Source: a virus. From it: a DNA stretch of 30,234 nt. Under the pieces are notes generated by a model that saw only the letters and a list, made by a program, of their open reading frames with translations, had not been told where the DNA came from and ran no database searches. The stretch lies in the IMG/VR virus record IMGVR_UViG_3300031975_001134, positions 1 through 30,234 of that record. One strand, given 5' to 3'. This document shows positions 4,078 through 24,286 of the stretch, one piece after another (position 1 is the first letter of the stretch; every line of letters begins with the position of its first letter). The translations under genes and the position numbers were made by a program.

Positions 4078-5384
4078 TGTCATTCCTGCGCAACTATTCA
4101 ATCATGACCTCAGGCAATGAGTCACCTGTTGTCTATCATAACTGGGCTGCACTGTCTACCTTATCGTCACTCATATCAAGACGCGTATGGGTTGACATGG
4201 GTATCTTTACAGTTTACCCTAATATGTATGTTCTATTCGTAGGTATGCCAGGCATCAAGAAGTCTACAGCAATGGACATATCTTTACGTATGCTGCAGTC
4301 ACTTCATGACATTCCTATCTCTCCTCCATCTGTGACAAAAGAAGCACTAACTCAAATGATGGCAGAAGAAGATTCACCATGCCAAAAAGCTTTCAAAGTC
4401 GGCGAGGACTTGCATCACTACACTCACCTGTCACTATACTGTAACGAGTTTGCAACTTTACTAGATGCAGGTGGTAATGCTCCAGGTATGATTGGCTTTC
4501 TCACAGACGTTTGGGATCGTGATGAGTTTGAAGTTCGCACCAAGAACAAAGGTATCGACACTATCAAAGGTCCATACATCACTATGCTTGGTTGCCTTAC
4601 TACAGAGACCATGAACAACTTAGCGTCAACACGCATTATTTCTTCTGGTTTTTCTCGCCGCTGCATCTTTGTTTATTCAGACGACTTCGGAACACCAGTG
4701 CCTATTCCTCGCATCACAGAAGAACAAAAGCTTGCTCGTGACGCTTGCATCAAACGAGCAAAAGAAATACTAGAACTTAAAGGTGAGTTCAAGCTAGCTA
4801 CGACTGCACTGGTCTGGTGGGACAGATGGTATAAAGAGAACTTCAAAGCACGAGCAGAAGAAAAGAACGCAATCTTTCAAGGTTACTTACAATCAAAAGC
4901 AGGATACGTTTTGAAGGTTGCAATGTTAATATCTCTGTCCGAAAGTAATGACTTGAACTTAGAGCCAGAACATCTTTCCGCTGCACTACAATTCCTAGAG
5001 GACATTGAGCCTGACATGATGAGAGTGTTTGAAGGTGCTGGTCGCAATGAGCTTGCGCCTATCGCAGCATCAATCAAGACAATGATCCTCGCTTCCAAGA
5101 AGCCCGTCACTCGTAAGTTAATTCACAAGACTTTCCACAAAGATGCCGATCCAAAGGAAATGGACAACGTGCTGGATCACTTGGTTAATACCGAGGACGA
5201 GATTCTATGCAAGGCTTTAACAATAGATGAGACGCACACCGTAAAGCTCTACGGGACTGAAGCAGCGTTTACAGAGTTGCTAACAACTGATCCGCGATTT
5301 GCGCCGCAACAACACGAGAAAGATAAGGTCGATCTTCCATCAGTCGATCTATCAAAGACGCCCTCATCACAGAACGTTGATTAA
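4077..5384 (+). CDS. DUF3987-like P-loop ATPase, putative replicative helicase or helicase-like protein
   Basis: A 435-residue ATPase with a P-loop at residues 56-64, GMPGIKKST. It aligns with GPPGTGKST, but the usual glycine before the lysine is itself lysine. A Walker-B-like LYCNEFATLL has Asn in place of the first acidic residue, TMLGCLTTETM occupies the sensor position, and GFSRRCIFVY offers arginines typical of DUF3987 proteins. In phages this family sits with polymerase and primase genes and is thought to act as a replication ATPase; here it follows polymerase and ligase in the same direction. No separate primase is seen. The last ~115 bp are also the 3' end of the giant gene on the opposite strand, and the C-terminal tail is charged and looks poorly constrained. 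Confidence 0.7.
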   Translation: MSFLRNYSIMTSGNESPVVYHNWAALSTLSSLISRRVWVDMGIFTVYPNMYVLFVGMPGIKKSTAMDISLRMLQSLHDIPISPPSVTKEALTQMMAEEDSPCQKAFKVGEDLHHYTHLSLYCNEFATLLDAGGNAPGMIGFLTDVWDRDEFEVRTKNKGIDTIKGPYITMLGCLTTETMNNLASTRIISSGFSRRCIFVYSDDFGTPVPIPRITEEQKLARDACIKRAKEILELKGEFKLATTALVWWDRWYKENFKARAEEKNAIFQGYLQSKAGYVLKVAMLISLSESNDLNLEPEHLSAALQFLEDIEPDMMRVFEGAGRNELAPIAASIKTMILASKKPVTRKLIHKTFHKDADPKEMDNVLDHLVNTEDEILCKALTIDETHTVKLYGTEAAFTELLTTDPRFAPQQHEKDKVDLPSVDLSKTPSSQNVD

Positions 5385-8300
5385 GGTTAGGTTTAGATCC
5401 TAGCTGTGATTGAACTTCTGCCCTTTTAAGCAGCCTAGCAACCTCGCTAGGTTCATTGCTATAACCCATAGATCGAAGCAAAGCCTCTTGACCAGCCGAA
5501 CCTTTAAAAGTAGCTTCCCTTCTAGCATCTCTAGGAAACGCTTCTTTCTCTGCTCGGTCTGCAACAAGGCCAGACAAACGCTGCTTTTCGCTTTCAAACT
5601 CACTAAAAGCTTTTTCAGTCGCACCCATATCTAGTGCCATCTGAACTTTTTCTGAACTCCAAGCTAGCCGCTCAATCTCTTTTCTTGCTTCACTTGCTGG
5701 CATCTCTGACAGCGAATCAGCCACTTTAATACCTTTTCTTCTTATAACGTCTTCATGCTTACGTTGCAGACGATTAATAGTTCTTTCTCTGTCTATTCGT
5801 TGTGGTGTAAATCCAATAGCATAAGCTACCTTTTCTCCAAAGTTAGCATCAATCAATTTGCCACCTCCCGAGTCTCTCAGCTCTCCACCGTGCCTTAGCA
5901 GGTGAATAGGCTTCTTCCAAGCAATAGGAACAACATCCTCTAATGCTTGCCCAGGGTTGCCTTCTCTAATCAAGTTAATAGCACCCTTAGAGACATTTTC
6001 AACGATTGAACCCGTCGGTCCCATTAGTTGCCCCAGAGACCAACCATCATAAGGGTTAAGTCCCATCACACCGCCGACAGCTAAACGACTTGCAAAGTCA
6101 GGTGCGCCTGGTAATACTTCTTTAGAAAAGGTATTTGCTGCTCCATTAAGTATCAAGTCAGCCAAGATGCCACCGTCTTCTCGTTCATCATCTTCTAATA
6201 GACCTGCAAGACCTTCTCGAGCTTCTTTCTCAATTTCAAGTCCAGTATATTTTTCTAGCAGTGCCATAGCTGATCCTACAAAAGGAAGTCCTACTAAACC
6301 TGCAGAAGCAAACTGTGCAATAACCATTGCTGTTAAAGCTTTGCGTGCATTTTTCCTGTCAGTTGGTGTCATGTCAGGATACTGCGTCTTATTAAAAGCC
6401 GTTTCACCGTAACGTCGCATCATTGACAACACACCAAAGTTATATCCTTGCAACGAATACATAGCTTGACCAAGTCCTCTAAATGCGCCTGTTCCTTCAA
6501 ACATTGCAACAGGCCTATTAGCTTTGCCGCCTGAATAAGTAACTACACGAGCAAATTCAAGTGCTGACTCCATTGCGGCTTTATGGTCTAATCCGTCAGC
6601 TTTTGCTTTGTTGTATCCAGCAATGAGGGCGACGCGAGCATTGTATTGTGTAAACTGCTGATAGAGTTTCAGCGAGTTTCTTGCTAGGTTCATTGCAGGA
6701 GTTATTCCCCACCTTGCAAGTGGATTTTTGGATTTCTCACCGCCCCTCATTGCCAGACCTGAAAGATCTGAGTTTGCTGCAGGATCAGGCTCAATAACTT
6801 CACTAGCCCATGACATAGAAATTTCGCCCCTTTCAGCAGCGTATTCCATCAGTTCGCCATAGTCTTTGTTGTCCCAAAACCTGTGGTTGTCAATACCCTT
6901 ATAAGCCTTTTGTTTGTCGCTTTCAGTAAGTCTACCAACAAATGGTAGTTTAACTTTAGCCAGACGTTTTAGATTAGAAGGTATCTGTAGTGCAGAAAAC
7001 TTACCAACTTCTTTTTCAGCCTGAATAATATACTTCATTGCACCCAGAAAACTTTCACCTCGTGCTATTAACTCAGGCACATAAGTGTTAACTGGCTGTG
7101 TAAGTTCAATAGCATGAGAGCTAAAGTTCAAGCCAAGAAAGTATGCAGCATTTGCTTGCACAATATCTTTACCAATCTTCGTATCTGGTTCGAAGAAGTT
7201 TTTAATGTGTTGGTCCAAGTCACCTAAATGTGCAGCAACCTTTTCATCGTTACGCCATGCCGGATCGGACTGACGATAGTTGTATCTGTGATAGAATAAT
7301 TTTTTGTTTAGCTTTCGTGTAGCAGAGTTCCAGTAAGCCATTTGCGTCGAAAACATATCAAGATACTGACGACCATCAGAAAGCTTTCTGCGCGATCCAT
7401 TCTTAATAATGTCGCTTGCCATCAGGTCTTTCTCAAATTCTGAAGCATAATTAAACTCAGCTTTGAGACGCTGCTTCTGCTCATCAGACAATGTAGTCAT
7501 AGAGTCTACAAGCGACTTGTTCAATGCATCCATGCGTGCAAGTTCAGAAACAACACGATCTTCACCTACAAAGTGTGGTTGTCCTCTGCGAACACCTTCC
7601 ACCATTATGACCTCTTTTCCTCTGGCTTTAAGCTCCTTAGCTTCAAAGGCTTTAGCTTCTTTAGCTGAATCAAACGCAGCACCACCAGTCTTGCCATCTT
7701 TGTCTTTCCAGCGAACAAAGAACTTACCTGTTCTAATTTCAGAGAAGAAATAAGGCTTCTTCTTGAATTGTGCTTTAAGCGTCTCTAAACCATTAAAACC
7801 CTTTTCAGCAAGTTCATACGCCTTGGCAAATCCGTCACTATCAGGAAACTCACTTGCTACTTTTTGTAGCATAGTTCTACCAGCTTCTACACTAGCAGGA
7901 TCACCTGACTTCATTAAAGTTAAAGCTTCATACATGACATTAGACAAGCCCATTGCGTTTTCACGTAAGCTGTCAGGATAGCGGCTTGCAATATAGTTAG
8001 TTACAAGTGCTTCGTTAGAGGCTCTAACAATACGAGGAATTTCTACGTCAGTAAACTCTTTCATTGCCGCAGACATTCTAGATTTAATGTGAATAACTGC
8101 TTCTCTCTCTGAAGGCTTAAGGTCTTTCAGTTTCTTGTGTAGCTCAGGTTCTACTTCAGCTAAGTCACCAAATGACAACTCCTTAGCGTGAGTGTTTTGT
8201 GCACGCATCCAGTCATCTCGCAGCGACTGTAGCTTAGGACTCTTTTTAACGCGCTCAAACTTTAAGCTGTCATCGCGTGATGAAAACTGTGCGTTACCTG

Positions 8301-11300
8301 CTGCATCAACTTCACCCATAATCTTGCCTGCAATACGTTTCATTACAGCATTGACGTTTCCAGAGTAAGCGTGCAGGTCTGAGCCAACTCCTTGAAAAGA
8401 AGGAATCATACGTGTTAGTTGATCAAACTGCAAAATCCATTTATCAAAGGCCTTGCGAGCAAAACCACGAGAGTCATCTGGTATTTGACTTTCAAACTTG
8501 CCGCCAAAGAAGTCTAAGCTATCTTTAACGTCAAAGCCCTGTGGACCCATTGCAAGTAATTTCTGGCTTTCTGTCCAAAACTCACGTTGTTTCTGTTGTG
8601 CCTTCTGGTATGCGTCAAGATCCTTGGTAAGACGATCCAATTTCTTGCGCATATCTCTTCTTGACCGGAAGTTGGTTAGAACGTTGCTGGTTCCTTTCAT
8701 TGCACCAACAACGTCTCTCATCAGATCAGTAAGCACTCTAAGTCCACGTTGAATTGGCGCAGGCAGAAGGTTCATTGCAACTTCATCTGGTTTATGTGCA
8801 CGGTTCATAGCCCACATTGAGATAAGGTTAGCCCTTACCTCTGCAGGATCGCTAACAGTATCCATAGCCTGCCGCACAACTTCAGTGTCTCGGAACTTCT
8901 TAGACAGCATACCGTCGCGCATAATCTCTAGCGCAAGCCTTCTGTCTTGTTCACTGGCATCTTTAGTCCAGTTAGTTAGTTCACGCATCATGTTGTGATG
9001 CCGCTTAGAAAGTAAACCTTTACGATCTAACTGTTCAACCAAGTGTGCTAACTCATGACCAGTCACAAAGGCAGCAGCTTCGTATGAGTCCTGCTTGCCA
9101 AGAAACAACTTTTGTGCAGTTCTACTTGCCGCACCTGAAATATTACTATTCTCTATTGTAGACAATGTAACTTCATTAGCGTCAAGTAAATCAAAGATCT
9201 TAGAAAAAGTCTCGTGAGATTCTTCTAGTGATTTATTGGTCCATCCTTTCTTGCGAAGTATACGAGTTAGCAGGTCTTTAGGTGTAGCAACAACTTGACC
9301 TTCAAGACGTCCAGTTCTAGCTCCATCAAGACCAATATGAGATGGCACGTCATATATTCGACCAGTAACGTTTGTGTGCGGTGTGCCGTCGGGGTTAAAG
9401 AGGGTGGGTTCGCGGGTTTCCAGAGGAAAGGCTGCCTCTGCTTCAGCCTCCGAAATCAGTCCCTCTTCATACTGTTGATTCAACCTTTCTTGTTGAACTT
9501 CAAGGGGTTCAAGCGGACTATCCTTATGCCTACCTAAATCCGCACGATTTCCGACGCCAAGCTGTTTCCTCGCAATGTTCTGAAGTCGTTCGTCATAAGC
9601 TGCACGCATTCCGGGTGCTTGAGAGGGTTCTGGATAAAACCGTGTGCCTACAGTTTCTAAGTGTCGCTTTATATCAGGGTTATTAGTTACAATCCGTCCG
9701 TCAGCAAAAACGTCAAATAACCAAGAACCGTCTTGCGCTGTATAAGTTCTACGACCGTCGCCTTGATCAAAATCTTTGATGTTGTCGTAGAACTCAACGA
9801 ACTCCTTCCGCTGTGTTTCTGTTAATCTATAAGCAAAATTTTGTCCGTTTAGAGAAGCTGCATCATGCCGCTCAGTCATCATCGCCGTATTACTATCCGG
9901 CATAAACAGCTTCGTCGCACCGTTCTCACGAGCTTTTTGAATTGCTGTGCGGAGTGCAATAGTTTCGTAGTTGGAGAAGAGTGGGTGAGAGTAGTTAGGA
10001 ATTACTGAATCAACTAATTCTCGCGTGATAATATCGCTCGCGTCGATACCATACGAGTATCTTAAATGATCAGATAACACAGATGCTTTTTCGCCAAGAT
10101 GACTTAGCATCTGTGTTCTGTTTGCATCCTCTCTTTTTTGTCTCTGCGCAGCTCCTTGCGCCGCATCACTTTGAACCTCGTCCACTCTAAAAATTCTATT
10201 TGCGTCCACTTGACGTAGAAGTTCTTGCCGCAATTCTGCTGCCTTCGTTTTTTGCTTTTCCACGTATTTAACTAGCTCTTCCCTTGTTTTGAATTCAGTG
10301 TCAACAAGGTCCCCTGCCGTTGGTTTCTCCATACGCTTGAGAGCTTGCAGTGTTTTGCTCACTTTATTGGTATCATTCTGATTAACCATTGACAGAGGAA
10401 TCTGATCTAGGGTAGAGTCAACAAAAGCGTCGTCGGCTAAAATAAACTTCCCTCTCACCCATGCAAGCGTATCGTCATTGCCTGTATGCCCTCCACCATT
10501 TTCTACTCCGTCAGCACGAATCACATACGCAACGTTACCTAGTCCTGTTTTAGGATCGAATGGTTGAAACTCATCAGGTGCAATATCTCCGAACCGTTCT
10601 GCAAAGTCCTCATTCTCTGCTTTATAGTCTGCATAGTCCGCATCGTTGTAAGCATCTGTAAGACGTTCATACTCAGGCAACAAAGCTTCAATACGAGCGC
10701 GGTTCTCTCGAAGTATTGCCTTTTGTGCAGAGGACACCAACGATGACTCAAGTGCGCGTTCAACACTAGATCCTGTACGAAAGGCCGAACTAAGTGCATC
10801 AAATCCTTCACTTCCTAATTCAGTTTCTACTGAATGTCGAAACTCATCAATGCGTCGTCTAGGTTCATCTGTAGCTTTTTCTCTAACTTCTACCCCACCA
10901 TGCACATCAACATCCAACAAAGGATACTCCGAGATCTCCATCAGCAACTGAAGATCAACTTCCCCGTCCTTTACCAACGTATCATACTTTAGTTTATAAG
11001 CCTCCCACGTGGAAGCCTTCATACCATAGCGCATCAGCTGCTTTTTAACAATGCGCTCGTCGACAAGTGGACTCTTATTGCTGCTAAACTGATAATCACC
11101 AATCATGAGATTACCAGTATCTTTATGCTTACCTAACACATGAGCAAGCGTTACACCCACACCAATATCCTTTGTGTCTAGCTTACCAATGTTCTCAGCG
11201 TCTCCACCAAAGAAATCAAGGTCATCCCAGTCTGCTGCATCATCTTCAAGAAACGTTTCAACATCCAGTCTATCTTGTTCGTCTTCTGTTAAATCGTATT

Positions 11301-13242
11301 TATCAAGATCTATTGTAACTTCACTTTCATCAAAGTCAGGGTCAAGAAAAGGATTTTTGTATTTTTTACCCTTCTTTTTCTTTTTCTTCGCAATCTGATT
11401 AGCTTTTTCTTTTGCTTTAGCAACAATATCTTCTGGCGAACCAGGAACAATTCGTCCTGACTCAGCTACTGCTTCTTGCGCTTGAGCAGCTTCAGCATCT
11501 TGTGCTTTATCCAGCTTGCTAACAACAACGGCTTTGCCATTGTATCGAACTTCATTACCACTAAATGTCAAGTCAGGACCTTCACCAGTTGGATTTTCAA
11601 GCTTAAGTATAACTTCACCTTGTTCATCAACTTTAGCTGATTTTACAACTGCTTGCACGTCGCCAACAGTATCTTGAACTTCTTCTGGCAACTGAACAAA
11701 TTTACCTACAACTTCTTTAACATCTTTAATCGAAGTTTCTTGAGCTTTATAAACCTCACCTTTAACCGCTGCTTCAGTTTCACTTCTAAGTCTTTCAGCT
11801 ACAACATCGACCGCTTCTTCAAGATTACCTTTCTTTTGCTCTGTAGCTTGACCCATAAAAGCTTTAAGGCTTTCATCATCAATCAAGCTCATATCCATTT
11901 CTTGCCTTACAACATTAGCTTGCAGCACTCTTTCTTTGAACTCTATATCATTCTTTGGCTCAAGTGCATCAAGCATCCTAGCATAACTAGCTTCTCCAGG
12001 AAAACTAAAACCTTCTACAGTCCTGCCAAAGGCTTCTAATGCCTCTGGTTCAACCAATGTTTCACGGCTCAGCTCTTGCATAACTGTGCCTTCTTCCGTA
12101 GCGACGGGTTCAACAGTTGAATTTGTCTTGTAGTCTTCTAGCTCAGTATACAAGACCTCTCCAAGAACTGTTGGAACTTCTTCAGCAGAAAGAACGCCTG
12201 CATCAGCCGCTGCATAAGCTTCTTCACGAAGTTTAGAAACTACAGTCATCATGCTCTCTCGAACATTTTCATCTTCTATATTTCGAGCCATTTCATACAG
12301 CTCACTTGAAGTGCGTAAGATTTCTTCTCGAGTCTTACCAATGCTTGTTGGAGTCGCAGCTGCAATTTTAGCAGCTTGTTCATCTTGCTCTGCAGAAGTA
12401 TATTTCTTTTTGTCTTGTTGTCTGCTAATATACCGTTCGCTTATTACTGAAGGATTAACCATCTCGTTGATTCCAAAGATTAGAGTTGGATCAACTAAGT
12501 TAGAAAGTATTTCTTCTTTTGTAAAGGGATTTTCAAACTCTCCAGTTTCAGCATATTTAATACCTGAACTTCCTAGCATTGCCGCAAGGTTAATAGTTGT
12601 TTCACCCGCAATACCTGCAAGAGCGCGATCACCCAACGTTTGTGCTATTAGTCGCTCTCCAACTTGTTCTCCAGTTTCGCTAAGTATTTTTTGCGTTGTG
12701 CCTCGACCAAGAGCAGATAAAGTTCCACGAGCGCCAAGACTTGCAACACCTCCACCAAAACCAGCAAGACCTGCTGAAAGTGCAGCTTGTCCATACGAGT
12801 CAGTTTGTTCCAAAGTGTTTGCTCCTGCTAGTGCAGCAGAACTAGCTAATCCTAAAGGTATTGCTATAGGACCGGCTGCTCCACCCGTGGCAGCAGTAAT
12901 GCCAAAACCTGCGATTGCAGGGAGGAAGTCTACAACTCCACGTAGAGCTTCCTCCCCGACTTGTCGCCCGGTTGCTTCATCAGCACCGAAAAATTCAAAA
13001 AGGTCTGCACCTCTTTCACCCAACCATTCTTCAGCACCACCAGCATTTCTGTCTAAAAACAGGTTAATTTCATCACTGGCTGATTTGACGGTGTTTTCAA
13101 ACCTATTACCTACACCAGCGTCGAATACATTGGTGCCAGTAAGTTGGTTAGCAAGTTGGGAAAACTCGTTAAGGTTTCCAAAAGCTCCACCGGTTTGTCC
13201 GTGGAGTTGTCGGACATCTGAGAATGATAAAGGGTTAATCAT
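5269..13242 (-). CDS. Giant internal virion / large polyvalent protein (2657 aa) with HExxH metallopeptidase centre
   Basis: Last and longest gene of the late block, uninterrupted over 8 kb. From the N-terminus: an FEFFGAD turn (82-88); a Gly/Ala-rich hydrophobic stretch (~105-175); a charged, repetitive coiled-coil region; a K6GKKY patch (619-628) then an acidic run; LDFFGG (675-680); an EVQSD-type polyvalent-protein domain (DEVQSD at 1021-1026 to GMRAAYDERL near 1211); a zincin centre HELAH (1396-1400) with a likely third ligand Glu1468 in DPAEVRANL; a second LDFFGG (1576-1581); long helical regions; PLARWG (2174-2179), close to the PLxRFG signature of huge phage proteins; and a hydrophobic segment near 2300-2325. 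I infer a protein packaged in the virion and ejected with DNA, comparable in position and size class to T7 gp16. Its ATG lies 2 bp after the previous stop. Family-level call fairly confident, activities inferred. Confidence 0.8.
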   Translation of the reverse strand: MINPLSFSDVRQLHGQTGGAFGNLNEFSQLANQLTGTNVFDAGVGNRFENTVKSASDEINLFLDRNAGGAEEWLGERGADLFEFFGADEATGRQVGEEALRGVVDFLPAIAGFGITAATGGAAGPIAIPLGLASSAALAGANTLEQTDSYGQAALSAGLAGFGGGVASLGARGTLSALGRGTTQKILSETGEQVGERLIAQTLGDRALAGIAGETTINLAAMLGSSGIKYAETGEFENPFTKEEILSNLVDPTLIFGINEMVNPSVISERYISRQQDKKKYTSAEQDEQAAKIAAATPTSIGKTREEILRTSSELYEMARNIEDENVRESMMTVVSKLREEAYAAADAGVLSAEEVPTVLGEVLYTELEDYKTNSTVEPVATEEGTVMQELSRETLVEPEALEAFGRTVEGFSFPGEASYARMLDALEPKNDIEFKERVLQANVVRQEMDMSLIDDESLKAFMGQATEQKKGNLEEAVDVVAERLRSETEAAVKGEVYKAQETSIKDVKEVVGKFVQLPEEVQDTVGDVQAVVKSAKVDEQGEVILKLENPTGEGPDLTFSGNEVRYNGKAVVVSKLDKAQDAEAAQAQEAVAESGRIVPGSPEDIVAKAKEKANQIAKKKKKKGKKYKNPFLDPDFDESEVTIDLDKYDLTEDEQDRLDVETFLEDDAADWDDLDFFGGDAENIGKLDTKDIGVGVTLAHVLGKHKDTGNLMIGDYQFSSNKSPLVDERIVKKQLMRYGMKASTWEAYKLKYDTLVKDGEVDLQLLMEISEYPLLDVDVHGGVEVREKATDEPRRRIDEFRHSVETELGSEGFDALSSAFRTGSSVERALESSLVSSAQKAILRENRARIEALLPEYERLTDAYNDADYADYKAENEDFAERFGDIAPDEFQPFDPKTGLGNVAYVIRADGVENGGGHTGNDDTLAWVRGKFILADDAFVDSTLDQIPLSMVNQNDTNKVSKTLQALKRMEKPTAGDLVDTEFKTREELVKYVEKQKTKAAELRQELLRQVDANRIFRVDEVQSDAAQGAAQRQKREDANRTQMLSHLGEKASVLSDHLRYSYGIDASDIITRELVDSVIPNYSHPLFSNYETIALRTAIQKARENGATKLFMPDSNTAMMTERHDAASLNGQNFAYRLTETQRKEFVEFYDNIKDFDQGDGRRTYTAQDGSWLFDVFADGRIVTNNPDIKRHLETVGTRFYPEPSQAPGMRAAYDERLQNIARKQLGVGNRADLGRHKDSPLEPLEVQQERLNQQYEEGLISEAEAEAAFPLETREPTLFNPDGTPHTNVTGRIYDVPSHIGLDGARTGRLEGQVVATPKDLLTRILRKKGWTNKSLEESHETFSKIFDLLDANEVTLSTIENSNISGAASRTAQKLFLGKQDSYEAAAFVTGHELAHLVEQLDRKGLLSKRHHNMMRELTNWTKDASEQDRRLALEIMRDGMLSKKFRDTEVVRQAMDTVSDPAEVRANLISMWAMNRAHKPDEVAMNLLPAPIQRGLRVLTDLMRDVVGAMKGTSNVLTNFRSRRDMRKKLDRLTKDLDAYQKAQQKQREFWTESQKLLAMGPQGFDVKDSLDFFGGKFESQIPDDSRGFARKAFDKWILQFDQLTRMIPSFQGVGSDLHAYSGNVNAVMKRIAGKIMGEVDAAGNAQFSSRDDSLKFERVKKSPKLQSLRDDWMRAQNTHAKELSFGDLAEVEPELHKKLKDLKPSEREAVIHIKSRMSAAMKEFTDVEIPRIVRASNEALVTNYIASRYPDSLRENAMGLSNVMYEALTLMKSGDPASVEAGRTMLQKVASEFPDSDGFAKAYELAEKGFNGLETLKAQFKKKPYFFSEIRTGKFFVRWKDKDGKTGGAAFDSAKEAKAFEAKELKARGKEVIMVEGVRRGQPHFVGEDRVVSELARMDALNKSLVDSMTTLSDEQKQRLKAEFNYASEFEKDLMASDIIKNGSRRKLSDGRQYLDMFSTQMAYWNSATRKLNKKLFYHRYNYRQSDPAWRNDEKVAAHLGDLDQHIKNFFEPDTKIGKDIVQANAAYFLGLNFSSHAIELTQPVNTYVPELIARGESFLGAMKYIIQAEKEVGKFSALQIPSNLKRLAKVKLPFVGRLTESDKQKAYKGIDNHRFWDNKDYGELMEYAAERGEISMSWASEVIEPDPAANSDLSGLAMRGGEKSKNPLARWGITPAMNLARNSLKLYQQFTQYNARVALIAGYNKAKADGLDHKAAMESALEFARVVTYSGGKANRPVAMFEGTGAFRGLGQAMYSLQGYNFGVLSMMRRYGETAFNKTQYPDMTPTDRKNARKALTAMVIAQFASAGLVGLPFVGSAMALLEKYTGLEIEKEAREGLAGLLEDDEREDGGILADLILNGAANTFSKEVLPGAPDFASRLAVGGVMGLNPYDGWSLGQLMGPTGSIVENVSKGAINLIREGNPGQALEDVVPIAWKKPIHLLRHGGELRDSGGGKLIDANFGEKVAYAIGFTPQRIDRERTINRLQRKHEDVIRRKGIKVADSLSEMPASEARKEIERLAWSSEKVQMALDMGATEKAFSEFESEKQRLSGLVADRAEKEAFPRDARREATFKGSAGQEALLRSMGYSNEPSEVARLLKRAEVQSQLGSKPNLNQRSVMRASLIDRLMEDRPYLSRVVAAQIADQLLATL
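5998..6010 (+). repeat. Dispersed 13-bp near-palindrome, copy D (TTCAACGATTGAA)
   Basis: Same 13-mer as the copy at 24293 (and 14 identical bases including the preceding T), but inside the giant virion protein gene, where the codons for Ser-Ile-Val-Glu account for it. It may be chance or an intragenic binding site. Confidence 0.4.
12109..12121. repeat. Perfect-arm variant of the 13-bp palindrome (TTCAACAGTTGAA)
   Basis: Arms TTCAAC and GTTGAA around one central base, one substitution from the TTCAACNATTGAA consensus. It lies within the giant virion protein gene, so it may be coincidental; listed because it is the fully symmetric form of the motif. Confidence 0.3.
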
Positions 13243-14899: not shown

Positions 14900-15463
14900 T
14901 TACAACCTGCCAAACGGCTGGTTACCTAATGTTCGATTTATATTTTGTGTTCCACCATATCCCTGAGTGGTTCTATTTGTAAAATAATTAACTCCTGGTT
15001 TAAGTCCTTGAGGAAAACCAAACTGATTGTAACGTTGTTTGTTTCTCTCAGTATAATCAGCTGCTCCAGGATTTAATGTATTTACCAAAGGCCTAACGTT
15101 ACTCCTTAGATATTGTGAACCTGGGAGGTTCATAAATGCCTTTTGATTCTCAGGCATTTGTTCGTCTGAAAGAGCAAAAGACGGGTAGTTTCCGGTTGTA
15201 GCCATGTTTAATATACCTCTTGCTTGAGGATCTTGCTGCAGTTGTCCTGCCCTAACGTTAGGGTTTCTAGACAATCTGCCAGAATTTGTCATTTCGTTTA
15301 GGTTGTATTGCCCATAAGCTCGAACTTCATTTTTATCTAAAGGGTTAAAAGTTCTACGAGAGCTTACATACGACCCATCACGTAAGCTTTGTCTTGTAGC
15401 TCTTACGGGTCTGTTTGGACGATATGGATTGTATCTACCTGGAGAATTATACAGTGTGGACAT
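14900..15463 (-). CDS. Hypothetical structural protein, Asn/Arg/Gly/Tyr-rich (187 aa)
   Basis: The reading frame extends upstream to 15538, but the ATG at 15463 (MSTLYNSPGRY) is preferred: it lies 4 bp after the sulfotransferase stop, whereas the longer version would overlap that gene by 71 bp and begin with atypical hydrophobic residues. The protein is low-complexity, with many N, R, Q, G and Y residues (YNPYRPNRPVRATRQ, GYGGTQNINRTLG), and has no recognised domain. Composition and location between the modification enzymes and the ejection-type proteins suggest a virion component, possibly disordered. No Shine-Dalgarno is visible before either start. Confidence 0.6.
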   Translation of the reverse strand: MSTLYNSPGRYNPYRPNRPVRATRQSLRDGSYVSSRRTFNPLDKNEVRAYGQYNLNEMTNSGRLSRNPNVRAGQLQQDPQARGILNMATTGNYPSFALSDEQMPENQKAFMNLPGSQYLRSNVRPLVNTLNPGAADYTERNKQRYNQFGFPQGLKPGVNYFTNRTTQGYGGTQNINRTLGNQPFGRL

Positions 15464-15467
15464 AATA

Positions 15468-16190
15468 TTATAGGTTTCTAAGTTTGCTACGTTCTTGTTG
15501 AACAATAGTGTTAATTTGATCTCTAAGAGATTTATCAATAAGTCTTAAACCATCTTTAGGAATACCTTGGCGTTGATGGCTGTCTGAACCTTTAGGTTCA
15601 AATACACAGCATTCTAACGCTCTGTCAAAATCTTCTTGATCTACGTCTAAATTAAATGTGTTAATAAGTTTTTCCAACATATACTCATGTCCAGCCGTCC
15701 ATATAGTATCGTAATTAAAAGCCACGTGATTTTTGCAACAAAAACTTTTATCATGCTTTAACCACATCTTAGCTTGGCTCCGAACAAACTCTAGCCTAGT
15801 GTCAATAAAGCAGTTCACATAAACTTCGTCTGGTAAATCTTTATAAAGCTTATTAAACTCTTCAAACGTAGAATGAACAGATTCTTTGTTTGCAGGTCGT
15901 TTTTTACCATTGTAAAGAATATACGATGCTAGCACGTCTAAAAATCTACGTCTGACTGAGATAATTCCTACTTTGTCAGCCATAGCCAAGTCTAATAAAT
16001 CTCTTGGTACAAGTTCATGTGTTTTAATAACTCTGTTATTTCCTTCTACAAAAGACTCAGATTCTTTTTCTGAAAGCCTCCAACGAAGCTTAGATTTAAA
16101 AGTCTCATATTTTACATTTAGCAGTCCGCATATACCACGAGTTACAAGCGTAGAACCACAGCGCATAAAAGTAGGAACAACGTAATTCAT
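15468..16190 (-). CDS. PAPS-dependent sulfotransferase
   Basis: Transfers sulfate from PAPS to an acceptor, usually a sugar hydroxyl in families of this kind. The 5'-phosphosulfate loop is at residues 6-15 (PTFMRCGSTL, the PxxRSGSTxL pattern with Cys for the usual Ser). A VIKTHEL strand (54-60) holds the likely catalytic histidine region, and the 3'-phosphate motif is RRRFLDVLASY (80-90), with the conserved Arg and Ser. No signal peptide or transmembrane anchor, so it acts in the host cytoplasm on intracellular PAPS. Its ATG overlaps the glycosyltransferase stop (ATGA), so the two are translated together and probably act on one product. Domain call strong, acceptor unknown. Confidence 0.85.
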   Translation of the reverse strand: MNYVVPTFMRCGSTLVTRGICGLLNVKYETFKSKLRWRLSEKESESFVEGNNRVIKTHELVPRDLLDLAMADKVGIISVRRRFLDVLASYILYNGKKRPANKESVHSTFEEFNKLYKDLPDEVYVNCFIDTRLEFVRSQAKMWLKHDKSFCCKNHVAFNYDTIWTAGHEYMLEKLINTFNLDVDQEDFDRALECCVFEPKGSDSHQRQGIPKDGLRLIDKSLRDQINTIVQQERSKLRNL

Positions 16191-17131
16191 AGTGCTTTTA
16201 AAGTGTGTTTAATTAAATTTGCAGAATTAAAACTTAGTGCTGTATTAAAGCCGTTAAAGTTTTTTGTCTGTCCGTCTTTGCACGCAGCTTTCAAACAATC
16301 AACTGCGCTGTCAAGCTCAGGATAAGCCCACTCACCTAAGTAAAACTCATCGTCAACAGCATCAAGTTTGTAGTCAATCAAGTAAGAATTTTCGTCATTG
16401 CAAAAATCCATATTACCAGAATAACCAGTGGCTACAACTTTTTTACCCATAGCCATCATTTCAATCATGTGCAAACCAAAGCCTTCACTCTTATGAGGGC
16501 TAAACAGTATGTCACAATTATCATACAACGAAAGCAAATCATTACGTGTAAGTGAGTCAGTAATCCACTCGCAGTCTAAACTTTCAGCTTGTTTTTTGAA
16601 GTACTTTAATAAAGAGCTTTTTGAGTTTGATACCTTAAATTTAACTTTAAAGGCTATAGACTCACTAAGTTTATTTAATGCTTCAAGAGCAAAAAATGGG
16701 TTCTTTCTAGATACTCGACTATCGCAATTAAATGCAACTAGAATAACAGGAACGTCATCTGCTGCGTCGGGATTGTATTTATAATCATTTACACAGTGTG
16801 GAACCAACTTTACTGGTTTACCAAGCGTTTCAAAGATGGACTTACAATAATTACTAGCAGTCCATATCTCTGAGTAATACGTTGCATGTTCAGCAAAGTC
16901 AACCGCAAGCTCTGAACTTTCCCACATCCAGTAAGCAATGTTATTGCCGTCAAGAAACTTAGGAATATGTATTAAGCTGCGAGTAGAACGTGGCAAACCA
17001 TGAACGTAAAAGTCGTCGTAGTCTTCTGCACTAGATACATTACAAACAGTTTTAATTGCTGCAGCTGTTTGCTTGTAAGCTGTGGAGATTCCACAAACGC
17101 CATTAACACCATGCAAATTCAACCTTCTCAT
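16187..17131 (-). CDS. Glycosyltransferase, GT-B fold, group 1 (GT4-like)
   Basis: A 314-residue GT-B enzyme. The N-terminal half begins with a glycine-rich loop (GVNGVCGIST, 8-17) and contains WTASNYCKSIF and PHCVN (111-115) at the usual inter-domain position. The C-terminal half has SRKNPFFALEA (141-151) and the EX7E donor-site motif EGFGLHMIE (Glu216, Glu224), followed by GYSGNMDF. This is the pattern of nucleotide-sugar-dependent retaining transferases. It is coupled to the 60-aa gene upstream (TAATG) and to the sulfotransferase downstream (ATGA). Position between tail-like and internal virion genes suggests glycosylation of a virion protein, or of a host surface glycan, with later sulfation. 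Confidence 0.87.
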   Translation of the reverse strand: MRRLNLHGVNGVCGISTAYKQTAAAIKTVCNVSSAEDYDDFYVHGLPRSTRSLIHIPKFLDGNNIAYWMWESSELAVDFAEHATYYSEIWTASNYCKSIFETLGKPVKLVPHCVNDYKYNPDAADDVPVILVAFNCDSRVSRKNPFFALEALNKLSESIAFKVKFKVSNSKSSLLKYFKKQAESLDCEWITDSLTRNDLLSLYDNCDILFSPHKSEGFGLHMIEMMAMGKKVVATGYSGNMDFCNDENSYLIDYKLDAVDDEFYLGEWAYPELDSAVDCLKAACKDGQTKNFNGFNTALSFNSANLIKHTLKAL

Positions 17132-17313
17132 TATTGAGGTTTTACTACTTTATACTGTTCTAACAGTTGCTGTGTTTCTTGGTCAAAGCTTGACTCATCT
17201 TGAGTCATTTGCTGTTCTGCTTCGTTTAGACTGAGCCGTATGGCTCGTAAGTCAGTGTTCCGAACGCTTCCGTCAAGTCCGGAAGTGTTATATAAATCTT
17301 CGTCCGTCTCCAT
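17131..17313 (-). CDS. Small acidic hypothetical protein (60 aa)
   Basis: Acidic, Gln/Glu-rich, likely helical product with no recognised domain. The gene starts inside the 3' end of the 456-aa gene (88-bp overlap in a different frame), and its stop shares a base with the glycosyltransferase ATG (TAATG). That coupling is the main reason to accept it. It might be a chaperone, a linker in the virion, or just a translational relay into the modification genes. Confidence 0.5.
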   Translation of the reverse strand: METDEDLYNTSGLDGSVRNTDLRAIRLSLNEAEQQMTQDESSFDQETQQLLEQYKVVKPQ

Positions 17314-18596
17314 AAATCATACTTCCATCTAACTGTATCATCTGCAATTAATTTTTCTTCACCCATTATATCAAGATATTCTGTTGCAGTAGGAGAACTA
17401 CCTCTCCAAGAATATGTGGTTATAGGCAATTCGCTAACATCGTAACCGCCAAAACCTCCTGATCCTATGGTGATTAAATTCAACTTTCTTAAAACAATTT
17501 CACCATCGTCACAAATAATATTAGGAACATCAATTCTAAAATCTCCATCAATATAAGATAAGTCTACAGTCTTAAATTGAAAGATTTCATCTGGTCCTTG
17601 TGCTGTTTCATGATAAGTAACTTCAAATCGTGCAGGCACTTTTAACTGTTGATCGCCTGATTTATTAGGCGAAACAGTGTTTAGATCAGAAACAACTTTA
17701 AAAGGAACAAGAGGGTCTAAATAAGCATTAAAGTAAAAATCAACATTATGATACTCATAAAATGTTTCAGTTAAAATAGAGCTATCAATCGTTTTTCTGA
17801 TTCTTGTCCAAACGTTATCACTTGATTGAACAACACTTTCAGTGCGTCGAGCGATAGACATATCTGCTGTTGTAGCAGGTTCTGCCAAAAAGATTGCTCG
17901 TTCTACAGTAACCCTTCTTCCAGTAATAGGCTCTTCTTCAAAGCTTGTAAATGTTCCGATAGGTTCAGAGTCACTAACATAGTTTTCAGCTCTAACAACT
18001 GTGCGAAGCATCTTAGCATCGTCTAGTTGCTGATCAACAACCTCAATAATATTACTTCCAGTTTCGACAGGAGTTCCAACGGCAATAACTTGTGCTGTTG
18101 AATTAGAAGTCCCACCAAACAAGTTGTCGTCTGTATGCTTTGTTAAGGTTCTTGGTCGCCAACTATCAACACGATTAACAACACTAACAGCGTTAGTCTC
18201 ATTAACTTGATTAAGTTTTTCACTAAGTAATGTCAAATCTTGATTACTTAGTTCATCTTGTGTTGTTGAACTTGTAAGATCGACATAAGACTCTGTAGTT
18301 GTGACAGTTTCACCACCTAGACGGTCAAGCCCTTTTAGCTCTGCGTGAGAAAGCGTTCCAGTATCTGAGGGATCAAATTTTGTAACCTGTTCTCTTGATT
18401 TGTTAATATTACCACCATTGACAACGCGTTTTTCTAACTCACCAAAAACAGGTGTATCAGGTTGATGCCCGTGTGCTACTTCTTGGTCAGTAGTAACTAA
18501 AGTCTTGCCTGTGGTCTCTGCACTTTTAACTCTTTGTGCTTCAATCTTTGGTCCTTTAATAGAACCAACAGGGTTATTTATATCAGTTTCAGCCAT
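17226..18596 (-). CDS. Putative tail/virion structural protein (456 aa)
   Basis: Unrecognised. The N-terminal ~120 residues are polar and Thr/Ser/Gly-rich. The rest is rich in beta-strand-prone segments (FEVTYHETAQGPDEIFQFKTVDLSY, shown here as adjoining pieces FEVTYHETAQ and FQFKTVDLSY) with many acidic residues and few helices, typical of a phage tail or fibre-like component. It directly follows the adaptor gene with a TAATG junction, the position of a tail nozzle, stopper or appendage gene in podoviruses. It may be the scaffold or acceptor for the downstream glycosyltransferase and sulfotransferase, but that is only inference. No enzymatic motif was seen. Confidence 0.65.
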   Translation of the reverse strand: MAETDINNPVGSIKGPKIEAQRVKSAETTGKTLVTTDQEVAHGHQPDTPVFGELEKRVVNGGNINKSREQVTKFDPSDTGTLSHAELKGLDRLGGETVTTTESYVDLTSSTTQDELSNQDLTLLSEKLNQVNETNAVSVVNRVDSWRPRTLTKHTDDNLFGGTSNSTAQVIAVGTPVETGSNIIEVVDQQLDDAKMLRTVVRAENYVSDSEPIGTFTSFEEEPITGRRVTVERAIFLAEPATTADMSIARRTESVVQSSDNVWTRIRKTIDSSILTETFYEYHNVDFYFNAYLDPLVPFKVVSDLNTVSPNKSGDQQLKVPARFEVTYHETAQGPDEIFQFKTVDLSYIDGDFRIDVPNIICDDGEIVLRKLNLITIGSGGFGGYDVSELPITTYSWRGSSPTATEYLDIMGEEKLIADDTVRWKYDLWRRTKIYITLPDLTEAFGTLTYEPYGSV

Positions 18597-19333
18597 TACC
18601 TTTTATATGGTGCTCTACCTGCTTCAATCAAGTAATTATCTTCTTCTACAAGACTTGCAAGTGCGTCATCTCTAGCCCGTTCTGGCACATCAACATTGCC
18701 TTCTTGTCTATTTACAAATTGTTTGACTAACAAGTTTGCTTCAACAATGCCACCATAAATCAGAAAATCAGATCCTTGATCTGTGAAGAAATCTTCATCT
18801 GAATCATTAGCATAATCGTCAAATCGTCTGTATCCATCTACAACAAAAGTTGTAGTTTCACTAGGTGTAGGCACAAAGGTTACAGTCTCGCCTTGTATAT
18901 AAGCGTTATAACTTGTTCCTCTAAAAGGAGCAACTAAGCTTTCTCTGTAAATTGCACCATCGTTAAGATACCTAAAAGCACTACTAATGCCTTGCGCAGT
19001 GTTTCTTTCACTTGCTGCAATAGCACCGTGGCGCATACTGTGTTGCCTAACAACCAGCAAGTCTTCACCATATTGCAGGTAAAAACTTTCTGGCTGCTTC
19101 AGCGTAACACTGGAATCGTCACTGATTAAACTAAGGTTTCTCCAGTTACCGACTCCATCCGTAAGAGTGCCATAAGCTCGAACCTCTTCACAATTCCAGT
19201 CATGCATTCTTGTAGCAAACCTACGTGCATTATTGCACGCGATTAACAACAAGTCAACACCACCTGTAATAAGTTGACTTTGATCAACTTGCAGATAAGC
19301 AGCAATCGTAGTTTTAATTTGTCCGATGTTCAT
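18596..19333 (-). CDS. Head-tail adaptor protein (SU10/P22 gp4-like)
   Basis: A 245-residue protein with the features of podovirus adaptor proteins. It opens with a helical start (IGQIKTTIAAYLQV), a helix with NNARRFATRMHDW, and a central beta region (ETVTFVPTPSETTTFVVDGYRR). The end reads DDYANDSDEDFFTDQGSDFLIYGGIVEANLL, split here as DDYANDSDEDFFTDQGS and DFLIYGGIVEANLL, the acidic loop plus long helix typical of the family. Such proteins form a ring under the portal that joins the tail. It lies between capsid and tail-like genes, as expected, and its stop overlaps the next start (TAATG). Confidence 0.75.
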   Translation of the reverse strand: MNIGQIKTTIAAYLQVDQSQLITGGVDLLLIACNNARRFATRMHDWNCEEVRAYGTLTDGVGNWRNLSLISDDSSVTLKQPESFYLQYGEDLLVVRQHSMRHGAIAASERNTAQGISSAFRYLNDGAIYRESLVAPFRGTSYNAYIQGETVTFVPTPSETTTFVVDGYRRFDDYANDSDEDFFTDQGSDFLIYGGIVEANLLVKQFVNRQEGNVDVPERARDDALASLVEEDNYLIEAGRAPYKR

Positions 19334-19366: not shown

Positions 19367-19552
19367 TTACTTGGCGTGACCGCGCAAACCAAGCTTTCCA
19401 AATGCCCCATGTTTTACTGTGTGGCGTTTGGTTGTATTTGTTCCAGTAGCAAAACGCTCGCGCGCTTCGGTGCTAAGCATAGCTGTATCTTTTACATCTA
19501 CTGCTGAACTTGCGGTTACTTCATCGTTTACTCCGACTCGATGTCTTTTCAT
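19367..19552 (-). CDS. Small basic hypothetical protein (61 aa)
   Basis: Short, basic, polar product (starts MKRHRVGVND, ends GKLGLRGHAK) with many Thr, Ala and Arg and no hydrophobic segment. It is one of the few genes in the window with a recognisable Shine-Dalgarno: AAAGGA about 8 bases before the ATG. It lies between the decoration-like protein and the adaptor, so it could be a minor head component. No family recognised. Confidence 0.6.
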   Translation of the reverse strand: MKRHRVGVNDEVTASSAVDVKDTAMLSTEARERFATGTNTTKRHTVKHGAFGKLGLRGHAK

Positions 19553-19933: not shown

Positions 19934-21340
19934 TTAGAGAGTGATTGATCCAAGGCGATCCAAGAACATGTGGTTCTCTGGATAGTGCAACTCAAGACCT
20001 GCTTCAGTAAGCCACTCATCCTTACGACCATCATAGTCGCGAGGCTGACGATTCTTAAGCAATGTCGTATCTGAATCTTGGAACGGTGTATATTTAAGCT
20101 CTCCCATATCAAGAATAAACGCAGACGAGTTGTGAACGTCGGTTTGTGCAAGAAGTGGGTGTGATTTGAAGTGAAGCACACCATGAGCAGTTTCCCAAGA
20201 TGTAACTTTCATACCAAAGGTATCTTCTTTAGAGTGAAGGTCAATGGTTTTAAGTGATGCATTTTTAGCATACTTGTTAAACTCAGACAAGAAACGCTGA
20301 CCGCAAAGAGCAATCTTTTCATAAGATTCATCGTTCGTATAACGGAACGCGTTCTGAATGATACGATCTTCAAACTCTTCACCAGTAATGTCAGCATTTG
20401 CAAAATCAAGAATACGCTTGTCATCCGAAGAATCCCATGCGTCGCCTGAAATATCAGAGCCATTAGGACGGTAATCAAATTGACCACCATTAGAGGTATT
20501 ACCCTTTTCGTATTGCTCAAGGAACCAACGAATGCCACCAAGAGTTCGACGAACCGTAGTGTCACCATCATCGGTAGTTGCAGCATAAGAAGAACGACGA
20601 CCAAAAAGGAAGGCGTATTCAAGCAGCTTCATGTGCTTCAAGGAATTGATCTTAGCTGTGGACTTGTAAGTGCCAGAGCTATCAAACTTGAGGCCCATCT
20701 TCAACGCATTACGCGTGAAGTTGAACGAATGACGAAAGATCTGGGTGTAGTTATACACTTCGATCGGCAATGTGCGGAAACCCGTCTTAGAGCGATCACC
20801 CTCAGCAGCTGCTGAAGATACAATGATCACATCCATAGCGTTAGCAGCGGTGGTGTTAAGCACGTTTGCTACCGTCTCAATCAAGAGAACGTCGACTGAG
20901 TTTTCCGTGGGGTAGACAGCAGTAATAACGCCTTGGAAAGTCTTCTCGGAAGAAGATGTTCCAGGAATGTTACGAAACTCAAGAACATCACGTTCTTGAA
21001 TTAGGGAAACATCGTTAAGAAACACGCGAAAAGCTGCGTTTCCTGCGAGTCCCCAGCCTGCTGCTGTCAAGTCAGTTCCAGCTGCGCCATTAGAACCGGA
21101 AGTATCGGTAAATGGTCCAGCGGAATTAGCTTGAGCTGTTTTAGCTTGGAAAGTTGGAAAACGTTCTTCGTTCCAACCCCAAGAGGGTTTATCTGTTTCA
21201 CCGTCGCCATCATCCATCATGGACAGCAAACCCATAAGAGGTGCCGCGCCGTTAGGATACTGGTAAAACACCTTACGTCGGATATCAAGAGACTGAACGC
21301 CTGTCAAATCCGAAGATGACTGTAAGCCTAGTATTGACAT
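19934..21340 (-). CDS. Major capsid protein
   Basis: A 468-residue protein in the expected position between scaffold and head-completion genes. It begins SILGLQSSSDLTGVQSLDIRRKVFYQYPNGAAPLMGLLS, quoted here as SILGLQSSSDL and RRKVFYQYPNGAAPL. It contains TQIFRHSFNFTRNA and YAFLFGRRS, then a long central region and a C-terminal YPENHMFLDRLGSI. These pieces (a Y-N-Y-T-Q-I-F..F..T segment, the LFG+ turn) fit the P22/SU10-like HK97-fold capsid proteins of podoviruses that infect aquatic bacteria. The upstream 37-bp gap is A/T-rich without a Shine-Dalgarno. Sequence identity to a specific family cannot be proved by eye. Confidence 0.8.
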   Translation of the reverse strand: MSILGLQSSSDLTGVQSLDIRRKVFYQYPNGAAPLMGLLSMMDDGDGETDKPSWGWNEERFPTFQAKTAQANSAGPFTDTSGSNGAAGTDLTAAGWGLAGNAAFRVFLNDVSLIQERDVLEFRNIPGTSSSEKTFQGVITAVYPTENSVDVLLIETVANVLNTTAANAMDVIIVSSAAAEGDRSKTGFRTLPIEVYNYTQIFRHSFNFTRNALKMGLKFDSSGTYKSTAKINSLKHMKLLEYAFLFGRRSSYAATTDDGDTTVRRTLGGIRWFLEQYEKGNTSNGGQFDYRPNGSDISGDAWDSSDDKRILDFANADITGEEFEDRIIQNAFRYTNDESYEKIALCGQRFLSEFNKYAKNASLKTIDLHSKEDTFGMKVTSWETAHGVLHFKSHPLLAQTDVHNSSAFILDMGELKYTPFQDSDTTLLKNRQPRDYDGRKDEWLTEAGLELHYPENHMFLDRLGSITL

Positions 21341-22208: not shown

Positions 22209-22485
22209 TATTCTTTTCGGTTTGGGCTAGTTGTGCTAGTTCGTTTTGTTTGGTTTCGAACCAGTATTTATCTATTCTGACTTGGGAAAGTGATCCAGCA
22301 GCTTGCTCTCTAACAATTAAAGCAGCAATGCCATCAGGTTGAGCACTTGTTACCATGTCAATTAACATATCTTCAGCTTGTTGGCATTCCTCTTGGAACA
22401 GCTTGTAAAGTAGGCTGTCCTTGAAGTTGTCCAACTCCTGCCGAACTTGGGAGAGTTTGACCTGGTCCCATTGGATTTTGTCCAT
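22201..22485 (-). CDS. Small helical protein overlapping the portal 3' end (94 aa)
   Basis: A 94-residue, predicted fully helical protein (QVRQELDNFKDSLLYKLF, EECQQAEDMLIDMV, IDKYWFETKQNELAQL) with no recognised domain. The first 113 bp overlap the portal gene in another frame, where the portal encodes a low-complexity Pro/Gln/Gly tail. The downstream end couples with the scaffold start. Good amphipathic spacing and the coupling argue that it is real. Likely a small head-assembly factor of the kind seen between portal and scaffold genes in related phages. Confidence 0.65.
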   Translation of the reverse strand: MDKIQWDQVKLSQVRQELDNFKDSLLYKLFQEECQQAEDMLIDMVTSAQPDGIAALIVREQAAGSLSQVRIDKYWFETKQNELAQLAQTEKNNV

Positions 22486-24286
22486 TTAAGATTTGAGGTT
22501 GAGGTTGGTTTTGAAAACGATCTACATTTTCGATCCCGCGCAACCTTAAAATCTCTTTTATAAGTGCGCCAAGATCGACATTGAGCATTGCCATTACTTC
22601 TGGCGTTCCCATCATAGCAGAAACAAGTTCTTGCAGCGATTGTGCAATAAAACCTTTTTCGCTTTGAAGTGTAGCATCGTGAACAAAATGATCTTTTAAG
22701 CCAATGAGTTGGCTTGGGTCTGTTGGTTTGAAAGCTTGAAACCTTTCTTCAGTATTTTCACCAATAATCTTTTGCCAACCTGGATAAGTAATACCTTGTC
22801 TGTGATTCGACAACAGCTTTTGTCCGAGCGGTGTAAAGGCGCAGTCCCACAAAATCTTAGCTGTAACTTTCATACGTGCAGCGGAACCGGAGTTAACGGC
22901 GCGAGCTTCAGTAGCAGACCTACGGCCACCATGAAACTGACCCATCGCGTTCTCGTTAACCCCAGTCACCACTTGCATGACTTTCATAAGAACTTCAGCG
23001 TCATTAAAATTGCCAGCAGTATAATCATTAAACTGCAACTGTTTAGCAAAACGATCAACGCCCATCTTAGGAGCACCTTTCTTAGTAAGAATCCAAGGTG
23101 ATCGGCTTTCAAGACTTGCCATATCAATCATACCTGGATCAACAATCATGTTGTTTTCCAAACCTTTCTTATTTGCCATAAGCCTAGCGTTAATAAGAAA
23201 GCTAATAACCTCTTGAATAGGATCAATAGAATCTGCAAGCGATTGTCCAATATGCTGGTGCATATCAGGCGAAATAAGTCCAACGTCGTAAGTATACTCA
23301 TCGTGCATATAGCCAATAGGCTCAGCACGTATTATTCTATCGTCGTTAGCAACTTGGACAACGTATTTAACAAGTCTGTCAGTATCGCTGAAACCGTAAG
23401 ACTTTGGATTGATCTCTAATTGACATTCAGTAACACATACAACTTGATCTTCTTTTGTTTTAACTCTAGATTCACTAATTGTATAATTATGAAAAGCTGA
23501 CAACCTAGTGTAATTACGGTGCCTTTCATAATCTTGTTTAGTCATAGGCTCAATAAACTCAACTCCTGCTACCCTTCCTGCAGCTTCGTGTTTTTTAAGA
23601 TAATTAATGTGCCACTCTGTTTCATCAGCTACAAAAGAGCCTTTGTGCCATTCACTCAGAGGAAATCTTGTATCAGGAAAAAAGTTATATGGCGAGATGT
23701 TAGTGAACTTATTGCCTTGGAACTTCAAGTATTCTTGTTCAGTTTCAACACTTTCGTTAGATACTTCAATATCACCTAACTGTGCGACTGCACCTGGAAT
23801 TGTAGCAGGAGCAAACTGATTTTCTGTTTCATACCAGCTTTTAAAGATTCCAATCGAGAAGCGACCGACATTAGTTAAAAACTGATAAACCTGCTGGCTA
23901 CCGTAGTTAGACCGCATATCTGCTTCTAACAGCTTTTCACCGTCGCTTGACTTATCACCTTTGTCTTCACTGCCAGTTCCAATTAACTCAAAGAACCTTT
24001 TGTTTTGGTAGAACAACAAAAAGATAAAGGCCACAAATGTTTGAATCTGTGCAAACGACATAGGAACGACCATTTTTTCAGGCTCATTATGATCGCTGGC
24101 GTCAATATCTTCTTCATCTGGAGCACGCAAGCCACAATACACATCGTTGTTTTTATCCCAACGTTCGTAATTTTTTGACATTTCTGATCTGGACTCTTTG
24201 ACCAGTTGAACAACTTTGTTCTTTAGTCTGACCAGATCATCATCTTGCTCTTCAGCAGCTAGTCTTTTCTTTAATTCTTCTTCCAT
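22373..24286 (-). CDS. Portal protein
   Basis: A 637-residue portal of podovirus type, forming the dodecameric DNA channel at the head vertex. Recognisable stretches include an N-terminal helix with RSEMSKNYERWDKNNDVYCG, the membrane-like or wing segment SFAQIQTFVAFIFLLFYQN, the stem/clip-region piece SLADSIDPIQEVISFLINAR, and NAMGQFHGGRRSATEARAVN, a strongly conserved portal pattern (G..GG+.SATEA). The C-terminal ~60 residues are Gln/Pro/Gly-rich and overlap the 94-aa gene. It follows the terminase directly, as usual. Confidence 0.9.
   Translation of the reverse strand: MEEELKKRLAAEEQDDDLVRLKNKVVQLVKESRSEMSKNYERWDKNNDVYCGLRAPDEEDIDASDHNEPEKMVVPMSFAQIQTFVAFIFLLFYQNKRFFELIGTGSEDKGDKSSDGEKLLEADMRSNYGSQQVYQFLTNVGRFSIGIFKSWYETENQFAPATIPGAVAQLGDIEVSNESVETEQEYLKFQGNKFTNISPYNFFPDTRFPLSEWHKGSFVADETEWHINYLKKHEAAGRVAGVEFIEPMTKQDYERHRNYTRLSAFHNYTISESRVKTKEDQVVCVTECQLEINPKSYGFSDTDRLVKYVVQVANDDRIIRAEPIGYMHDEYTYDVGLISPDMHQHIGQSLADSIDPIQEVISFLINARLMANKKGLENNMIVDPGMIDMASLESRSPWILTKKGAPKMGVDRFAKQLQFNDYTAGNFNDAEVLMKVMQVVTGVNENAMGQFHGGRRSATEARAVNSGSAARMKVTAKILWDCAFTPLGQKLLSNHRQGITYPGWQKIIGENTEERFQAFKPTDPSQLIGLKDHFVHDATLQSEKGFIAQSLQELVSAMMGTPEVMAMLNVDLGALIKEILRLRGIENVDRFQNQPQPQILNGQNPMGPGQTLPSSAGVGQLQGQPTLQAVPRGMPTS

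Follow-up and report, generated by a model that had tools for sequence, protein, structure and literature searches.

What would a glycosyltransferase (GT) and a sulfotransferase (ST), encoded by overlapping genes among the virion genes of a podovirus-like phage, modify: the phage particle, the surface of the host, the phage DNA, or unrelated substrates? The stretch analysed here, referred to as the window (30,234 nucleotides), is a viral record of IMG/VR (IMGVR_UViG_3300031975_001134).

Organization of the locus

The virion genes form a block on the minus strand, in the order TerL, portal, g276, MCP, g104, g61, g245, g456, g60, GT, ST, g212, g147, g393 and a gene for a giant protein (Table 1). 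The capsid and portal proteins both match SU10 families in Pfam, which assigns the phage, known here from its contig, to the SU10 type. Both GT and ST are real genes in their correct reading frames, and the overlap of the GT stop and the ST start as ATGA, as initially described, agrees with the coordinates of the two frames. The start of g212 is most likely the ATG at 15463, directly past the ST stop, so that ST need not overlap g212. The g60 gene shares 88 bp with the end of g456, and scans for promoters and terminators returned signals at chance level only. The placement of the pair within a late virion block, claimed in the preliminary description, stands, but the labels given there to its neighbours (‘tail-like’ for g456, ‘internal virion’ for the downstream genes) derive from position, as no family was matched.

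Table 1. Position of GT, ST and neighbouring genes in the window.
Feature	Coordinates	Strand	Remarks
Portal protein, SU10 type	22373..24286	-	Pfam SU10_portal 6e-17
Major capsid protein (MCP), SU10 type	19934..21340	-	Pfam SU10_MCP 7e-27
g245, conserved virion-block protein	18596..19333	-	Upstream boundary of the module; found in relatives with the interval visible
g456, candidate virion (tail or neck) protein	17226..18596	-	456 aa
g60, 60-aa ORF	17131..17313	-	Overlaps g456 3' end; TAATG stop/start with GT
GT, GT4-type glycosyltransferase	16187..17131	-	314 aa; EX7E is E216/E224
ST, predicted PAPS-dependent sulfotransferase	15468..16190	-	240 aa
g212, first gene downstream of the module	14900..15463	-	187 aa from likely start; conserved in L005; L017 has a gene of comparable make-up in this position

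The giant protein that closes the block (2657 aa; window 5269-13242, minus strand) has no family match and shows local similarity of 20-34% in relatives. Between the capsid gene and g245, a 61-aa protein (window 19367-19552, minus strand) keeps 47-59% identity in relatives, compared with only about 24-35% for their g245. Window positions 8-2062 are a truncated part of a gene found at L053:12236-14656 in the same phage, which encodes an 806-aa DNA polymerase A with an N-terminal uracil-DNA glycosylase domain (Pfam UDG 4e-12, DNA_pol_A 5e-24); adjoining it (L053:10658-12235) is a gene for a 525-aa protein in which a ParB-like N-terminal domain is fused to an N6/N4 DNA methyltransferase.

Family assignment of the two enzymes

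The earlier reading of GT as a GT4-like enzyme with an EX7E motif at residues 216-224 is borne out. It matches Pfam Glycos_transf_1 (E 3e-12; 46.8 bits against a curated cut-off of 26.4), Glyco_trans_1_4 (1e-10) and phrog_2170 (1.5e-19), and carries both glutamates of the E216-x7-E224 motif. GT also matches GT4 families of the polysaccharide type. The protein is 87% identical to its copy in the sister contig L005, with a dN/dS of 0.12, and 29% identical to that of a distant phage, L017. In the GT tree the window/L005 and L017 proteins cluster together, separate from 50 bacterial GTs (98% SH-aLRT), a grouping exposed to long-branch attraction given the length of the two branches. Among uncultured bacteria, L070, L073 and L078 carry GT4 relatives close to APS kinase genes, that is, in apparent sulfation clusters; these kinase genes include L070:2447-3052 and L073:261-875, with several such kinases per genome there.

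Searches with one or two ST sequences against Pfam, PHROGs, NCBIfam, PDB, phages and plasmids yielded no informative match, with no sulfotransferase match in the first four. A profile of the family, made from bacterial sulfotransferases fetched separately and with the phage sequences left out of the alignment, recovers ST (E 2.4e-7) and its L005 copy (E 2e-8) as the only significant phage ORFs. Because this fresh profile does match ST, the missing match to the curated Pfam family is taken as a sign of divergence. Comparison by hhalign aligns ST with the family at 96.6% (E 6e-10) over residues 4-226, almost the full length, while 60 column shuffles gave at most 3.7% and other window proteins of up to 700 aa at most 1.6%.

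The P-loop R10-T14 (R10CGST14), K56-T57-H58, R81-x7-S89 and R207-Q-G209 are all in register with the family and invariant in the L005 copy; in 50/50 family rows an R stands opposite R81 and an S opposite S89, and the alignment extends to the P-loop, K56/H58 and RQG. In sulfotransferases these elements are the 5'-phosphosulfate P-loop, the catalytic Lys/His, the Arg-x7-Ser 3'-phosphate site and the C-terminal RxG. In a set of 1389 ORFs (180-500 aa) the four-motif grammar is satisfied by the ST copies alone, and by none of 200,000 shuffles. The motifs are beyond chance and the profile tests are decisive: judged by its sequence, ST belongs to the PAPS sulfotransferase family (Sulfotransfer_1 superfamily), in agreement with the preliminary description, which had singled out the loop and the R81..S89 motif. 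The conserved residues and a dN/dS of 0.20 between the window and L005 suggest that it is enzymatically active. A profile of the two phage ST copies had one match below 1e-3 (5.4e-4) among 398 Pseudomonadota genomes, in L168, to a canonical Sulfotransfer_1 protein (Pfam 5e-30) adjoining a GT2 gene; a match at E 0.006 in L169, where there is no sulfotransferase ORF, was treated as noise. An AlphaFold2 model of ST from a two-row alignment had a pLDDT of 35.

Distribution and divergence of the module

L005, about 96% identical to the window in head genes, has the same locus, order and overlaps, with an ST 73% identical. In L017 (TerL 50% and MCP 45% identical to the window) g245 is followed by homologues of g456 and GT, a 214-aa ORF (L017:15309-15953) in the position of ST that shares the 4-bp overlap with GT. 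Next come genes resembling g212, g147 and g393 in size, order and make-up, and finally the giant gene. The 214-aa ORF may be a diverged sulfotransferase, but its weak in-register similarity is no higher than that of shuffles and no database match was found. Conservation of the pair at one locus, the check named in the preliminary description, is seen in L005, and the two genes are not found apart in unrelated positions in this sister phage; L017 keeps GT, followed by a third gene that cannot be recognised as an ST. Likewise, the 60-aa gene is coupled to GT as described and 90% conserved in L005, but is not a constant part of the unit, since nothing corresponding to it lies between these two genes in L017, where GT follows g456.

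Six relatives (L008, L009, L014, L016, L022 and L028) lack g456, GT and ST in the interval between g245 and the giant gene, a count covering loci in which that interval is complete; L011 repeats L008, and L007 is partial and agrees as far as visible. Scans of IMG/VR for further relatives of g456, GT or ST led back to the same phage, L005 and L017; beyond these, they turned up only distant GTs in large phages. As g456 (26-34% identical between window/L005 and L017) and GT co-occur in window/L005 and L017 and are both missing from the other relatives, they behave as one unit. A firm ST is confined to the window lineage and the third gene of L017 is unrecognisable, so that the tie to g456 holds for GT alone and not for the two enzymes together. 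The g456 product, which has no family match and gave a pLDDT of 30 in AlphaFold2 from a three-row alignment, is probably a virion protein of the tail or neck. Its residues 99-138 have the highest local Ser/Thr density (0.35) among the window proteins checked, which may be a faint pointer to O-glycosylation.

Divergence between the window and L005 rises at the module. The dS is 0.04-0.16 in g245, g276, MCP and portal (0.04 in g245, about 0.15 in head genes), 0.26 in g456, where differences are concentrated at residues 41-120, 0.56 in GT, 1.00 at its peak in ST and 0.36 in g212; this island is seen in one genome pair, and dS values around 1 approach saturation. The whole compared region, GT and ST included, is under purifying selection. 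A rise in dS combined with low dN/dS is as expected for a functional module swapped between alleles, and the simplest reading of the pattern suggests allele exchange by recombination at the module.

Relation to known systems

Virion glycosylation is established in phages, with glycans on the capsid and tail tube of mycobacteriophages (Freeman et al. 2023, cited by PMC12619734), and the likeness to the present locus is that a phage-encoded glycosyltransferase decorates structural proteins. Here, in contrast, the acceptor is putative and the phage is of the SU10 type. We know of no sulfotransferase in the mycobacteriophage system. Sulfotransferases are already known from phages: contigs related to OM43 phages carry Sulfotransfer_3 genes, whose function in phages the paper calls unclear (PMC10580990); these differ from ST in belonging to another Pfam branch, and a glycosyltransferase is not mentioned there. 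A similar arrangement occurs in Synechococcus phage S-SRM01 (MW015081, 230774-233771), where a sulfotransferase (Pfam Sulfotransfer_3/1), one further gene and a glycosyltransferase lie near tail-fibre genes with 4-bp overlaps. It is, however, a T4-like cyanophage in which the sulfotransferase comes first and the glycosyltransferase is a GT2-methyltransferase fusion rather than a GT4, and the papers found do not describe the cluster as a virion-modification system. In S-SKS1 no glycosyltransferase is annotated within the stretch read. The bacterial pair in L168, which includes the nearest bacterial sulfotransferase found, is likewise coupled by an overlapping start and stop, but resides in a bacterial genome and has a GT2 instead of a GT4.

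No paper describing phage virion sulfation was found in the open-access literature. The pairing itself, which the preliminary description took to be unusual in podoviruses and perhaps an undescribed pathway, has a partial precedent in S-SRM01 (T4-like, with another glycosyltransferase family).

These arrangements also bear on whether the two genes belong together. They might be independent accessory genes in a variable spot, acting on different substrates, with an adjacency of little meaning, as would fit the different gene after GT in L017, the lone sulfotransferase among replication and recombination genes in S-SCSM1, and the far greater divergence of ST than of GT between the sister phages. 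This is improbable, since the ATGA coupling and the order are retained in L005, g456 co-occurs with GT, and a sulfotransferase close to a glycosyltransferase recurs in the tail-fibre region of S-SRM01 and in L168.

Predicted target of the modification

The best-supported function, predicted with a confidence just short of even, is that GT and ST decorate the virion with a sulfated sugar. As a late, translationally coupled two-step unit, GT would move a sugar from a host nucleotide-sugar onto a virion protein, most likely the g456 product, the best candidate acceptor, and ST would then sulfate that sugar. Phage contigs, including a 38,981-bp contig of the same phage, contain no APS kinase, and hence host PAPS would be used. 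The outcome would be a variable acidic glycan on the particle, which may alter adsorption or recognition. Activity, order of reactions, substrate, sugar and benefit are all inferred. The link to g456, the position in the virion block and the coupling together favour a virion acceptor.

The particle is the likelier target, and the host surface is a less likely but serious rival. GT and ST could act late on a glycan of the host surface (LPS, capsule or a lipid-linked precursor) and so mask or change the receptor, which would keep new particles from binding to debris or shut out competing phages. Such a role, to which about one chance in three may be given, would suit the polysaccharide-type matches of GT, the apparent sulfation clusters around its relatives in L070, L073 and L078, and the surface-sugar genes of cyanophages such as S-SRM01. 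It fits less well with GT being tied to the putative virion gene g456 at one virion-block locus, with no transporter, flippase or acyltransferase being found beside GT, and with a late gene leaving little time for surface remodelling.

Modification of phage DNA to a glycosylated, sulfated hypermodified base is very improbable. Glycosyl- and sulfotransferases have been suspected of nucleotide modification in viral ecology (PMC10829341), but no base modifier of the thymidylate synthase type is present in the 38,981-bp contig or in L017, GT and ST sit among structural and not replication genes, and the phage has a plain N6/N4 methyltransferase instead.

Extending the virion reading, the module may be a glycosulfation cassette: the g456 product, a tail or neck acceptor, would bear a glycan added by GT and sulfated by ST, and phages would trade the cassette among themselves for recognition, as a kind of ‘serotype’ unit whose third enzyme is interchangeable (ST here, something else in L017); this fuller picture is speculative and, taken as a whole, rather unlikely. 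With two enzymes, an adjacent candidate acceptor and a comparison phage (L017) that has the acceptor and GT but another third gene, the locus provides a compact test case. If the virion is the target, this would be the first sulfated phage particle, as far as found, and would account for a class of orphan phage genes.
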